Of a stretch of DNA of 40,567 nt, positions 6,482 to 10,829 are shown piece after piece. Position 1 is the stretch's first letter, and each line of letters starts with the position of its first letter. Position numbers and translations under genes: made by a program. This DNA comes from Clostridia bacterium (GTDB taxonomy: Bacteria > Bacillota > Thermoanaerobacteria > Thermoanaerobacterales > Thermoanaerobacteraceae), in contig DULG01000039.1 in assembly GCA_012840485.1 (NCBI GenBank), positions 1 to 40,567 of the forward strand, written 5' to 3'. The notes beneath the pieces are model-generated. The model saw nothing but the letters and a program-made list of their open reading frames with translations. It did no database searches and was not told where the DNA came from.

Positions 6482-6517
6482 TTGAGGGGAAGAAAAATTT
6501 CTTCCTCTCAATTTTTT
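6482..6517 (+). terminator. Rho-independent terminator of the CoA-transferase operon
   Basis: A 12-bp stem (6482-6493 with 6500-6511, one G-T pair) with a short AT loop is followed directly by six T residues. It lies 18 bases after the dehydrogenase stop. Confidence 0.92.
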
Positions 6518-6528
6518 CTAATATTCAA

Positions 6529-6557
6529 TTGACATCCTAATTAATAAAAATTACAAT
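6529..6557 (+). promoter_or_regulatory. Sigma-A promoter of the agr-like operon
   Basis: TTGACA (6529-6534), 17 bases, TACAAT (6552-6557). Transcription would start near 6564, about 30 bases before the first gene. No LytTR-type repeat is seen here, unlike at agrD, so basal expression may be constitutive. Confidence 0.82.
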
Positions 6558-6593
6558 TATATTGAAATTATGTAATGTAAAAGGGCGATAAAA

Positions 6594-7052
6594 ATGGATA
6601 GGTTAACGATTGGGGAGGCATTTTTGTTTTCAGTGCCGGAGGCAGCAGTCATAATTAGTATTGCTTTTGGTTTAGCAGGAGTAAAATTTCAATTAGAAAA
6701 GATTTTGTACATGAGTTTACTTACCGGAATTATATTATATTTTATAAGGCCATTGGTCAATAGTTATATTTTAAATGTTATACTTTATATCGTGGTATTA
6801 ATGATTTTGTTTTTGGTATTTAAAGTTATGGACTTTTTTAAAGGAATGATGAGCGTCATTTTGGCCGTTTCTATCTACTTAATAATAGAATATTTAAATG
6901 TTACTGCAATTCAATTTTTATTTGATATAGATCCTGTAATTTTATTAAAGGACTATGGCGTACGATTTATGTGTTTTTTGCCTCAGTTATTAATTGCTAT
7001 TTTACTTTCCTTTATTATACGCAAATATAAACTTTATCTATTTATAGAGTGA
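6594..7052 (+). CDS. Small membrane protein of unknown function, first gene of the agr-like operon
   Basis: 152 residues, almost all hydrophobic, with about five predicted membrane spans (near residues 10-30, 35-52, 56-77, 83-105 and 123-145). It ends in a short basic tail (RKYKLYLFIE). I do not recognise the family and see no catalytic motif. ATG follows AAGGGCG. It is the first gene after a strong promoter and lies 21 bases before the LytTR response regulator, so it is almost certainly co-transcribed with the quorum-sensing genes. Possible roles, by position only, are helping peptide export or processing, or modulating the kinase. Confidence 0.8.
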   Translation: MDRLTIGEAFLFSVPEAAVIISIAFGLAGVKFQLEKILYMSLLTGIILYFIRPLVNSYILNVILYIVVLMILFLVFKVMDFFKGMMSVILAVSIYLIIEYLNVTAIQFLFDIDPVILLKDYGVRFMCFLPQLLIAILLSFIIRKYKLYLFIE

Positions 7053-7073
7053 TGTATTGGGAGATGAATTTAT

Positions 7074-7781
7074 ATGCTAAGAGTAGTCATTGCAGAAGAC
7101 GATATAAATTTTAGAAAAGAGATCATAAAAATTCTTTTAACAATTGAAGATGTTAATGTTGAATATTCTACAGGAGATGGAAAAAATGCATTAGAGGCGT
7201 TAATTAAAATTAAACCAGATGTTGCTATTTTAGATATAGGATTGCCTGGAATGTCGGGCATTGAAGTAGCCAAAAAAATTAGAGAATATATGCCTTTTTT
7301 AGAGATAATTTTTATTACTTCCTTTGAAGAATACATAAAAGATGCTGTGAGGCTTTATGCTTCTGATTATATTGAAAAACCTCTTGATAAAAATAGGCTA
7401 GAAGCAACTATCAAGAGAATAGAAGAAAAGTTATTGAAAATAGAAAATTACGTACCCTTAAAAACGAAAGATAGTGTGAGACTTGTCAATCCAAAAGAAA
7501 TTTATTTTGTACAGGCTAATAAAAAGAGAAGTACAGTATATATGCAAAGAGAAAAACTTTTATGCGAATACTCTTTAAAAGAGATAGAAGGGATACTTGA
7601 TAAAGATGTGTTTTTTAGAACTAATCGGTCTTATTTGGTCAATCTTTTAAAAGTTGATATGTTAAAAGATAAAAATAGAACATCTTTTGAGATATATTTT
7701 AAAGGCTCAAATCACAAGGCCTATCTTTCAAAAGAGCTGTATGAGGAGTTTAGAAAGAAGGTAAAAGCAATTTATAAGTAA
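7074..7781 (+). CDS. LytTR-family response regulator, AgrA-like
   Basis: 235 residues. The receiver domain (about 1-120) starts VVIAEDD with the acidic pocket, has the phospho-acceptor Asp54 in ILDIGLPG, the conserved Thr/Ser region ITSFEEY, and the Lys in IEKPLD. The C-terminal domain (about 127-230) is a LytTR DNA-binding domain, with VPLKTKDSVRLVNPKEI and the FFRTNRSYLVNL block typical of AgrA, VirR and ComE. Such domains bind pairs of 9-base direct repeats spaced by about 12 bases, and exactly such a pair is found at 9399-9428 ahead of agrD. It sits 19 bases before the GHKL kinase gene, its likely partner. Confidence 0.92.
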   Translation: MLRVVIAEDDINFRKEIIKILLTIEDVNVEYSTGDGKNALEALIKIKPDVAILDIGLPGMSGIEVAKKIREYMPFLEIIFITSFEEYIKDAVRLYASDYIEKPLDKNRLEATIKRIEEKLLKIENYVPLKTKDSVRLVNPKEIYFVQANKKRSTVYMQREKLLCEYSLKEIEGILDKDVFFRTNRSYLVNLLKVDMLKDKNRTSFEIYFKGSNHKAYLSKELYEEFRKKVKAIYK

Positions 7782-7800
7782 AAGGATTGGAAGAGGATTT

Positions 7801-8670
7801 ATGTTTAAAAATAGTTATAAAAATGCAATGATGATCTATGTGTTACAAATGATTTTAATAGTGGTGTTACTAAACAACAATTTTATGAAAGCTTTTGATA
7901 TTTTCCAACCTAAGAGTCAAGAATTGTTTAGGTTTTTTATAGGAATTTTAATTTTTATATTGAACTTTTTCTCTATTTTTGTATTGAGAGAGTTGTATGC
8001 TAAAAATAAAGAAGAGCGCCAATTTTTAATAAATAGCATTAAATTTAAATACATAGAAGAACAAAATCGCATATACCGAAAAAATCACCATGACCTCAAA
8101 AATCATTTGTTAATTATTTCTGAGTTAGTTAAAGAAAAGAGATATGTTGAGTTAGAAAAATATTTGAATTTATATATGGAAGAAATTGATAAAAATTTAA
8201 TATCAATAAACACAGGGGTAAATGAAATTGATATATTGCTTTATTCAAAGATAAACAATGCTAAAAGTAAAGGAATTGATGTGAAGTTTAAATGTGATAC
8301 TCAAATCCAATGCGGTCAAAAACATGTGTTAAACCTTGTTTCAGTTTTAGGAAATTTAATAGACAACGCAATAGAAGCTTGTGAGGAAATGGAAGGGGAA
8401 AAGTGCATAGTTATAAGTATTGGGGAAGATCCTATAGACTACATATTCCATATAAGAAATACATCGCATTTTGAGGAAATTATAGAGCCTTCTGTTTTAT
8501 TTGAAGAAGGTTTTTCTACAAAAGGGGGTAGTGGAAGAGGAGAAGGATTGTATATTGTAAAAAACATAGTGGAGAAATATCGAGGTGAAATAAAAGTAGA
8601 GACTCAAGAGGGATATTTTGATATTACTATAGAAATTCCGAAATTTTCTTTGGAGGGCGATGGATATTAA
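7801..8670 (+). CDS. GHKL sensor histidine kinase, AgrC-like
   Basis: 289 residues. Two hydrophobic spans (about 10-25 and 45-63) anchor a short N-terminus; this is fewer than the five to seven spans of Staphylococcus AgrC. The phospho-acceptor region is NHHDLKNHL (His near residue 97), the N-box is GNLIDNAIEACE (about 188-199), and the G-box is GEGLYIVKNIVEKYRGE. The ATPase domain belongs to the HATPase_c_5 / GHKL group that pairs with LytTR regulators. It overlaps the agrB start by 11 bases, which suggests translational coupling. The reduced membrane sensor means peptide sensing might need a partner, perhaps the membrane protein at 6594. Confidence 0.9.
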   Translation: MFKNSYKNAMMIYVLQMILIVVLLNNNFMKAFDIFQPKSQELFRFFIGILIFILNFFSIFVLRELYAKNKEERQFLINSIKFKYIEEQNRIYRKNHHDLKNHLLIISELVKEKRYVELEKYLNLYMEEIDKNLISINTGVNEIDILLYSKINNAKSKGIDVKFKCDTQIQCGQKHVLNLVSVLGNLIDNAIEACEEMEGEKCIVISIGEDPIDYIFHIRNTSHFEEIIEPSVLFEEGFSTKGGSGRGEGLYIVKNIVEKYRGEIKVETQEGYFDITIEIPKFSLEGDGY

Positions 8671-9241
8671 TGTTGAAAAATTAGCGGAAAGATTGGCACA
8701 AAGACTGTTTATAACTCAAAATTTGAGAGATATTGAAATGGCAAAAATACAATATGGTATAAGCTTAATTTTAGGGGTAATAATTGAATTTACTGTAGTT
8801 TACGCTATTTCTTTGATATTGGGATTTGGCTTTTACACTGTAGTAATAATGCTTTCTGCTCTTTTTTTGAGAATAAATACAGGAGGAGCTCATTGTTCAA
8901 CTTATAATAGATGTGTGGCTTTTACAGCAATTTATTTCCTGCCCTTTTCGGCGTTAACGAAATTTATAAACTTGTACTTTTCCTTAAAAGTTGAATTTAT
9001 TACAAGTATATTGCTATACTTTATTGTTTTTGCGATAGTGAGGGAATATAAATTTTATAAAATTGTCATTTCCATAAGTGTTATTTTAGATACTTTATTA
9101 TTTTTTATTGGGGCAGCCTTTGGAGTTAAGATATTTTTTATAATTTCAATTAGTTTTATTTTACAATCTATAATGATTACTCCACTTGGAGGAATGATAG
9201 TATCAAGGGCTGATAGTATCCTTAAGAAATTAAAGATATAA
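8660..9241 (+). CDS. agrB: AgrB-like peptide-processing membrane protease
   Basis: 193 residues with about six hydrophobic spans. The AgrB signature RINTGGAHCSTYNRC is complete (residues 71-85), giving the catalytic His78 and Cys85 that cut AgrD and form the thiolactone. Length matches the family (about 190-210). ATG is preceded by GGAGGG at a rather short spacing and overlaps the kinase gene by 11 bases. Unlike Staphylococcus, no agrD follows immediately: the peptide gene is 251 bases further on behind its own promoter. The C-terminal motif PLGGMIVSRADSILKKLKI is basic and probably cytoplasmic. Confidence 0.93.
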   Translation: MDINVEKLAERLAQRLFITQNLRDIEMAKIQYGISLILGVIIEFTVVYAISLILGFGFYTVVIMLSALFLRINTGGAHCSTYNRCVAFTAIYFLPFSALTKFINLYFSLKVEFITSILLYFIVFAIVREYKFYKIVISISVILDTLLFFIGAAFGVKIFFIISISFILQSIMITPLGGMIVSRADSILKKLKI

Positions 9242-9398
9242 TTTTTTTAAAAAATTTTATGGATTTTTATGTAAAACAATACGAATAATGTATTTGTATA
9301 CATAAAATTAATGGGATCCAGTAGAAAATATTACAGTAATTTCATTAAAAAATGTAATTTTTAGTAAATATTTGGATATATTTAGGTGAAAAATGCAT

Positions 9399-9428
9399 TT
9401 TCGTTCCCTAAAATGACACTTTCGTTCC
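9399..9428 (+). promoter_or_regulatory. LytTR direct-repeat operator of agrD
   Basis: TTTCGTTCC occurs at 9399-9407 and again at 9420-9428, separated by exactly 12 bases (21 bases repeat to repeat). Both copies are preceded by AAATG, so the similarity extends over 17-18 bases. This is the arrangement bound by AgrA-type LytTR regulators. It stands about 30 bases upstream of a TATAAT, as expected for an activator site. Confidence 0.78.
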
Positions 9429-9457
9429 GAAATCCACACAAGAGATTTTAAATATTG

Positions 9458-9463
9458 TATAAT
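9458..9463 (+). promoter_or_regulatory. -10 element of the agrD promoter
   Basis: TATAAT lies 35 bases before the agrD start codon. No good -35 hexamer stands at the correct distance (around 9435-9440), which is typical of promoters that need a bound activator. The LytTR repeats just upstream would supply it. Confidence 0.7.
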
Positions 9464-9492
9464 TAGATTAAAGATGAGTGGAGGTGAAGTGA

Positions 9493-9624
9493 ATGAAAAA
9501 AATTCACCCACTATCGCTATTAGGAACGCTGCTTACATTTATAGGCACATTGGGGTTGGCGACGCCTGCTTGCATTGGCTGGTTTTATAAACCCCAAGTT
9601 CCTGAGATTTTGAGTAAAAAATAG
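9493..9624 (+). CDS. agrD: AgrD-like cyclic autoinducer peptide precursor
   Basis: 43-residue peptide. It has an amphipathic, partly hydrophobic N-terminal leader (MKKIHPLSLLGTLLTFIGTL), a Cys at residue 27 in ATPACIGWFY, and the acidic, Pro-containing tail KPQVPEIL that marks AgrD C-termini. By family analogy the mature signal would be a thiolactone ring beginning at Cys27, perhaps CIGWF or CIGWFY, with a few tail residues. GGAGGTG stands 7 bases before ATG. Expression from its own LytTR-controlled promoter would give positive feedback, with AgrB at 8660 as the processing enzyme. The gene is short, but the Cys plus tail pattern and the neighbouring agrB make the call strong. Confidence 0.9.
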   Translation: MKKIHPLSLLGTLLTFIGTLGLATPACIGWFYKPQVPEILSKK

Positions 9625-9704
9625 TATTTTTAAAGTTTTTTACCCTTCCCTCGTGGGTTTCAACATTTCCCCTGGGTTTTTATATATAGATTTTAAATTA
9701 TTTT

Positions 9705-9727
9705 GTGCCGATTTTTCGGCACTTTTT
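9705..9727 (+). terminator. Rho-independent terminator after agrD
   Basis: Stem GTGCCGA/TCGGCAC with a TTTT loop, followed by five T residues and a further T-rich stretch. It lies 80 bases after the agrD stop. Confidence 0.85.
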
Positions 9728-9771: not shown

Positions 9772-9998
9772 TAAAAGAAGTATAGAAGATAAAAGATGTA
9801 TTGACTAGCAAGAGGGAGGGGTTTATAATAAAAATTTAGAGGGATAGGATATGGGGGTATCTCCTCTTGACTTTTAAAGTAAACTGAGGTAAGAAATTTT
9901 TATGATTGAAAAACCATGTAAAAACGTATAATTAATATTATGAAATAGTTTAAAAGATTATTGAAGCAAAAATTAGTTGTGCTCAGGGGGTTGCTCTA
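9772..9998 (+). other. Long leader between the second sigma-54 promoter and the P-loop gene
   Basis: No convincing gene is seen. A hairpin is possible at about 9840-9869, where GAGGGATA faces TATCTCCTC. An 8-codon frame (MGVSPLDF) starts at 9851 after GGATAGG, but it is too short to claim. The region may be an untranslated leader. Confidence 0.4.
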
Positions 9999-10829
9999 TT
10001 GAAAGTTTATTCTTTAATAGGAGAAAGTGGAACAGGTAAAAGTCATCATGCTTCCTTTATTGCAGGAAAGTATGGAATCAGATATATAATTGATGATGGA
10101 ATTTTAATAAGGGGCAATAATATTATCGCAGGAATTTCTGCTAAAAAAGAAACCACAAAAATTGGCGCTATAAAAAGGGCATTGTTTACGGATCCTAAAC
10201 ATGTTGAAGAAGTAAAAAAAGCTATTGAAGAAGCGAAACCTGATAAAATCCTTATAATAGGCACTTCTGATAAAATGGTGGATGCTATAGCTGAAAAGTT
10301 AGGGCTTCCGCCAGTGAGTGTAAGGATATATATTGAAGATGTAGTCCCACCTAAACAGATTGAAATAGCCCGTGAAAAACGCTTGTTAGAAGGAAAACAT
10401 GTTATCCCTGTTCCAACTTTCGAAGTTAAAAAGCAGTTCTCAGGCTATTTTTTAGACCCTCTCAGGATTTTTAGGAGGAATAACAAAGGGTATTTTGAAA
10501 AAACCATTGTAAGGCCTAATTATAGTTATTTAGGTAAATATACCATTTCTGAAAGTGTTATAAATTCAATAGTGGCTCATGAACTTATTTTATTTAATGA
10601 AGTTTACAAAGTTAATAAAGTTTTGACAGAAAAAAGGCCTGAAGGTATAATTTTAAAAGTAGACGTTACAATGAGGTATGGGTACAAAATTATCCCTGTA
10701 TTAAAAGAAGCTATGAAAAATATAAAAAAACAATTGGAGTATATGACGGCCATAAATGTCCTGCAAATGGACATTTATGTAAAAAATTTGTATATAGAAA
10801 AAACAAATATTAGAGAAAAGGGTGTGTGA
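9999..10829 (+). CDS. P-loop NTP-binding protein with Asp23-like C-terminus
   Basis: 276 residues. Walker A is GESGTGKS at residues 8-15, and LIIGTSD near 86 resembles a strand preceding a switch region. The N-terminal half (to about 165) looks like a small kinase-type P-loop fold. The C-terminal part (about 175-270) has SISESVINSIVAHE-like and LKVDVTMRYGYKIIPVLKEAM blocks similar to the Asp23/Gls24 alkaline-shock domain. The start is TTG, chosen because AGGGGG stands eight bases before it and no better start exists. The gene ends one base before the NfnA start, so the two are co-expressed. Function is unknown; a link to NfnAB redox metabolism is suggested only by position. Confidence 0.8.
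   Translation: MKVYSLIGESGTGKSHHASFIAGKYGIRYIIDDGILIRGNNIIAGISAKKETTKIGAIKRALFTDPKHVEEVKKAIEEAKPDKILIIGTSDKMVDAIAEKLGLPPVSVRIYIEDVVPPKQIEIAREKRLLEGKHVIPVPTFEVKKQFSGYFLDPLRIFRRNNKGYFEKTIVRPNYSYLGKYTISESVINSIVAHELILFNEVYKVNKVLTEKRPEGIILKVDVTMRYGYKIIPVLKEAMKNIKKQLEYMTAINVLQMDIYVKNLYIEKTNIREKGV

Follow-up and report, generated by a model that had tools for sequence, protein, structure and literature searches.

The agr system of Staphylococcus aureus is organized as agrBDCA, with AgrA sites at P2 and P3, and paired direct repeats lie upstream of its activated promoters (PMC4227749). Here, we analysed an agr-type locus of a Clostridia bacterium (contig DULG01000039.1 of assembly GCA_012840485.1; the window is the whole stretch of 40,567 nucleotides), which shares AgrB, AgrD, an AgrC-type kinase, a LytTR regulator and paired repeats with S. 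aureus. In contrast to S. aureus, the receptor lies in two genes and agrD appears as a transcription unit of its own. Moreover, the site stands at agrD and not at the operon, which would shift feedback away from the operon as a whole and onto agrD; additional sites precede regulators, some of which are located at bacteriocin clusters. We assign a probability of roughly 0.78 to the overall reading, namely an agr-type circuit with feedback at agrD and GAF-LuxR regulators as targets.

Clostridium thermocellum, likewise a thermophile, has an AgrD pentapeptide (Clo1313_2818) whose autoinducing peptide is a five-residue ring cleaved just before Tyr; it differs from the present case in being a lactone with Ser, and the cognate agrB, agrC and agrA were not identified there (PMC5322536). 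According to the available part of a report on C. acetobutylicum, agr genes also occupy more than one transcription unit (agrBD and agrCA) and control a lanthipeptide-synthetase-like gene, CA_C0082; however, agrB and agrD stand together, and that part describes no second-tier regulators (PMC10301443). In C. autoethanogenum, the order is agrDCB (PMC8748961). Class II bacteriocin systems controlled by LytTR regulators, and LytTR regulatory systems (LRS), likewise combine 9-bp repeats 12 bp apart with bacteriocin genes, but their repeats are at the bacteriocin promoters, whereas here they stand at intermediate GAF-LuxR regulators, adding one layer (PMC6193735). Open-licence papers on Thermoanaerobacter with agr or bacteriocins contained no report of the present system, which is weak evidence of novelty.

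Organization of the locus

The operon (6594-9241; all features are on the forward strand) encodes a membrane protein of 152 amino acids (aa) with five transmembrane (TM) helices (6594..7052), an AgrA-like response regulator with receiver and LytTR domains (7074..7781; PF00072 and PF04397), a 2-TM GHKL histidine kinase (7801..8670; PF14501) and the processing and export protease AgrB (8660..9241; PF04647, 66.5 bits against a cut-off of 23). After 251 bases follows agrD (9493..9624). Its product, a 43-aa signal precursor, matches TIGR04223 at 28.9 bits (cut-off 19) and combines a hydrophobic leader with a ring Cys and a tail that contains Pro. An original prediction, made from the bases alone, had claimed an Agr-type system with this gene order and these coordinates; both agree with the open reading frames, and family models match AgrB, AgrD, regulator and kinase alike. 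Its description of agrD as unlinked is right in that agrD stands apart from agrB behind an activator-type promoter of its own, but the arrangement is not unique, as distant Bacillota loci and published gene orders indicate. A genome-wide LytTR search found the agr regulator as the sole LytTR protein of this genome, and the AgrB of the operon is also the only one. The 152-aa protein has no Pfam match. Judged by its genes, the locus is an agr-type system except that the polytopic sensor and the GHKL kinase of AgrC are spread over two polypeptides; a single-polypeptide AgrC is typical, although the mechanism does not need it.

The locus is present in nine of ten genomes of the genus (Thermoanaerobacter, including Caldanaerobacter subterraneus), with gene order and agrD gap unchanged and AgrB identity down to 47% in G008. 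Named records with the locus are T. wiegelii, Thermoanaerobacter sp. A7A, T. thermocopriae and Caldanaerobacter subterraneus. In T. thermocopriae (G009, L066; C3:29124-29826), several stops and frame changes interrupt the agr regulator gene, and the sensor half, kinase, AgrB, AgrD and sites remain.

A LytTR-type site at the agrD promoter

Upstream of agrD, TTTCGTTCC occurs exactly at 9399-9407 and 9420-9428, separated by 12 bases and embedded in a longer 21-bp tandem repeat (AAAATGnCAyTTTCGTTCC twice, from about 9390; 9390..9428). The -10 hexamer TATAAT (9458..9463) begins 29 bp past the second half-site and has no -35 element; a ribosome-binding site, GGAGGTGA, follows at 9480..9487, and a terminator 3′ of agrD (GTGCCGA...TCGGCAC plus T run, 9705..9722) is kept in relatives. 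LytTR activation sites are defined by a pair of 9-bp direct repeats that lie 11-13 bp from each other ahead of a promoter. The 29-bp spacing to the -10 together with the 12-bp gap is consistent with the published sites, in which 9-bp repeats 12 bp apart serve bacteriocin genes (PMC6193735). In the window, only 0.13 matches are expected by chance even if up to three mismatches are allowed. Across the ten genus genomes, 29 matches with up to two mismatches were found against six for the reversed pattern, whereas the count in 17 genomes of other families was at control level. The distance from second half-site to -10 was 29 bp in 33 of the 37 scorable promoters and 28 bp in the remaining four.

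In all nine agr loci, the agrD promoter consists of the site and TATAAT, with no -35, and the site block is almost invariant while the remainder of the agrB-agrD gap has diverged. By contrast, the operon promoter (TTGACA-17-TACAAT, 6529..6557; a promoter-like match of 11/12 that ties for the best of the region) is also invariant in all nine, and its nearest site-like sequence has 7-9 mismatches, which is chance level. The claims of the original prediction that repeats with a 12-base gap precede the TATAAT of agrD and are absent at the operon promoter are thus borne out, the former exactly, and the site recurs nearly unchanged at the agrD promoters of relatives. Further downstream, the interval from agrD to the gene at 9999 contains a strong promoter-like sequence (TTGACT-17-TATAAT, 9801-9829), which is followed by a GGGGGTATCTCC hairpin.

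The predicted signal

In alignments, AgrD ACIGWFYKPQVP is invariant as protein in nine genomes with synonymous changes in most codons, and hence the predicted signal is identical in every species examined. The earlier proposal of a CIGWF or CIGWFY ring can be narrowed: the C. thermocellum ring is cut before Tyr and Tyr follows CIGWF here, which favours CIGWF and makes CIGWFY less likely (PMC5322536). By this analogy, the signal is most likely a thiolactone ring Cys-Ile-Gly-Trp-Phe, the codons of which (9571..9585) show synonymous changes only.

A probable AgrC receptor in two genes

The original prediction had listed the first gene of the operon as a membrane protein; its probable identity as the missing half of AgrC is an addition of the present analysis. 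The NCBIfam AgrC model aligns to the kinase only from model position 138 onward. With profiles built from Thermoanaerobacter proteins, positions 1-149 of the hidden Markov model of the 152-aa family align to residues 1-149 of a full-length AgrC of 448 aa. The kinase profile covers residues 166-442 of this protein, so that the two parts do not overlap. Profile-profile comparison matched the 152-aa family to AgrC residues 1-154 with 99.8% probability over 156 gap-free columns and the kinase to AgrC from about residue 190 with 100% probability, whereas a control with the AgrB profile gave 0.6%. An AlphaFold2 model of the 152-aa protein has five membrane helices (predicted local distance difference test score 87.6), and a fold search with this model returned no solved relative; the best Protein Data Bank sequence match of the kinase is the AgrC kinase module 6e52. 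Judged by homology, the 152-aa protein and the 2-TM kinase are thus very likely the N-terminal sensor half and the C-terminal half of AgrC, with the regulator gene placed between them, and the two halves would presumably assemble into one receptor.

We scanned 42 loci, comprising 40 distant Bacillota agr loci fetched through AgrB, the same-order locus L181 (G034) and the window, and all matches of the 152-aa profile with E < 0.01 were agr-associated. Split receptors were found at seven other loci (L189, L196, L197, L199, L223, L225 and L181), so the split AgrC is a recurring form; we found no paper describing one in the open-licence literature. Four of the Bacillota loci (L189, L197, L199 and L225) resemble the present locus in having a gene like that of the 152-aa protein, a 2-TM kinase, AgrB, regulator and separate agrD, but gene order differs. 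Repeats with a 21-bp period precede agrD at L197, L199 and L225, although they are short and were judged against shuffled sequences only. L199 has two agrD genes (6506-6637 and 9520-9651), each after near-identical repeats of this period. At ten loci (L188, L192, L195, L198, L203, L207, L209, L216, L221 and L222), a sensor-half gene lies beside AgrB and AgrD with no kinase found in the scanned stretch, which suggests that the half may serve an unlinked kinase.

Sites at GAF-LuxR regulators and peptide clusters

Every genus genome also has near-identical promoters at other places, with the same repeats, no -35 and usually a 29-bp distance to the -10; most of them precede GAF-LuxR regulators. 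The proposal that feedback acts on the peptide alone therefore finds no support in that form, and in the sister genus the same promoter stands at a regulator-kinase operon. In this genome, the second site (contig C76 31976-32005, minus strand) has one mismatch and the same spacing to TATAAT, and the GAF-LuxR-type regulator behind it is broken; hence, the agrD loop alone is clearly intact in the strain of the window.

Outside agrD, the gene behind most genus sites encodes a regulator of about 258 aa. Its DNA-binding end is of LuxR type (PF00196), and its GAF-like sensor part reaches PF01590 in one subfamily and has a DhaR-like match in both. The sites lie 101-121 bp ahead of most close regulator copies. 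Among 13 copies of the closest subfamily with a 5′ end, the site is present with at most one mismatch in ten, decayed in one and missing in two. In G003, G006 and G010, the regulators adjoin class II bacteriocin genes (TIGR03949, 37.6 bits against a cut-off of 21.5) that encode double-glycine leaders, accompanied by a C39 transporter in G003. In G003 and G004, they adjoin PqqD-like and radical SAM genes together with small open reading frames that resemble precursors.

In class II clusters, the leader shared by the peptide genes contains an inverted repeat, ACTACA-N6-TGTAGT, which lies about 18 bp upstream of a -10-like sequence and may be the operator of the second-tier regulator. The repeat was not found in the radical SAM clusters or at the loci of this genome, and thus is confined to class II bacteriocin clusters. 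A leader of about 200 nt is conserved among the class II genes (L047 10399 and 11734; L059 1088, 2378 and 6879; L052 1086), and an Rfam search of these leaders returned no riboswitch, only group II intron parts. Separately, this genome has an intact GAF-LuxR regulator that lacks the site, located after glycogen-type genes (G000 C76 41492-42268, L126; 42372-42629, L180), and the DNA just upstream of it may, in one frame, resemble a Cys-rich glycocin core (CPLDWVCGGIGKMCDPYC).

The sister genus

In the sister genus, which we infer to be Thermoanaerobacterium, regulator orthologs occur in seven of nine genomes (49-51% identity), and the kinase, with 38-39% identity in four genomes checked, adjoins the same chromosomal neighbour gene. 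The regulator-kinase locus has no 152-aa gene, AgrB or recognisable AgrD, and the 152-aa gene and AgrB were not found in the whole genomes at the thresholds used. The sensor half is missing just where AgrB and AgrD are, in agreement with a role in sensing the cyclic peptide. The site heads the regulator-kinase operon; in several genomes a further one precedes a conserved 47-aa peptide at the place of agrD, and others stand ahead of genes for a 144-aa secreted protein and for a regulator whose sensor part is related. The 47-aa peptide (MDMQLT...FSKSNIDMEFA.KFLQTL.KLSIKKK; L069:7273-7416, L182:5888-6031 in the reverse complement of the locus, and L183:6200-6343) has no Cys ring and a LytTR-like site upstream.

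Discussion

Gene identities, receptor homology, conservation of site and spacing, and the putative target set were computed here, and the circuit proposed below is built on them. In this circuit, a constitutive-type promoter would supply both receptor halves, the LytTR regulator and AgrB. AgrB would trim AgrD, and the resulting cyclic peptide, most likely the CIGWF thiolactone, would be sensed by the two-gene AgrC. The phosphorylated regulator would then bind the tandem repeats and activate promoters without a -35, namely those of agrD, giving positive feedback on the signal, and of GAF-LuxR regulators across the genus, several of which sit at bacteriocin or radical SAM peptide clusters. Peptide structure, DNA binding, direction of regulation and the cascade are thus predicted from sequence. 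We have good confidence in the feedback loop at agrD. The putative cascade to bacteriocin regulators is rated about even, slightly on the doubtful side, because its basis is promoter likeness and gene neighbourhood. A fuller two-tier circuit, in which two-gene AgrC reads one genus-wide peptide and GAF-LuxR regulators travel with the promoter into various bacteriocin and radical SAM peptide clusters and use their own operators (ACTACA-N6-TGTAGT being a candidate at class II bacteriocin genes), and in which the sister genus employs this regulator, kinase and site but no peptide branch, is likewise tentative, a little short of an even chance.

The strongest argument that the agr regulator reads the sites is that it is the only LytTR protein in G000 (this genome), G005 and G008. 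Several observations weigh against the proposed circuit. Sites are kept in G007, which has no agr locus, in G009 with its broken regulator, and in G017 and G019, which have no regulator ortholog. Decay after loss is the simplest reading of these cases, and incomplete assembly or another binding protein is possible. Six of ten genus genomes encode another LytTR protein, which is longer (open frame 260-281 aa) and in G007 is the only one. Moreover, the two regulator copies with no site are L126 (this genome) and L129 (G005), a related regulator subfamily has no site upstream, and the site-bearing loci of G002 and of G010 contig 5 are among those without a recognised peptide gene nearby. Finally, a terminator scan of the agrB-agrD gap found none, and basal read-through could therefore extend from the operon into agrD.

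The shared promoters may alternatively be copies that spread with regulator genes through duplication or mobile elements, so that likeness would reflect descent and not agr control. Promoters are alike over about 75 bp, the regulators are multicopy and several are broken, transposase-like or group II intron sequence is found nearby, and, as above, sites persist in genomes without the regulator. However, agrD is an unrelated gene and has the same site, spacing and -10 as the regulator promoters; genes of the sister genus have the same site with mostly the same 29-bp spacing, and repeats remain intact while flanks diverge. We consider descent alone an unlikely explanation. That agrD is expressed mainly by read-through of the operon, with the repeats as a minor or repressing element, would fit the missing terminator, but the -10, ribosome-binding site and conserved terminator point to a monocistronic unit, and LytTR repeats beside a promoter with no -35 are suggestive of activation, which makes this account rather improbable.

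LRS regulators are not known to have a receiver domain and are paired with an inhibitory membrane protein, unlike the regulator here, which has a receiver and whose neighbouring membrane protein is homologous to AgrC. It is very improbable that the 152-aa protein inhibits the LytTR regulator from the membrane, as its counterparts do in the streptococcal LRS (HdrRM and BrsRM). The two genes are adjacent, and bacteriocin control through 9-bp repeats with a 12-bp gap is also a feature of LRS regulators (PMC6193735), but the protein aligns without gaps to precisely the AgrC half that the kinase lacks, and its homologs with E < 0.01 in the 42 loci are all agr-associated.

The agr-type reading offers a defined and testable candidate regulon in thermophilic anaerobes, in which a cyclic-peptide signal is linked to several bacteriocin and radical SAM peptide clusters. 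AgrC appears to be divisible into two genes, which would permit separate study of sensor and kinase halves. The sister genus represents a natural rewiring experiment, with the same regulator and site and a different gene feeding the loop. Moreover, as the predicted signal does not vary, one signal could serve different Thermoanaerobacter species, in contrast to staphylococci with their diversified groups.

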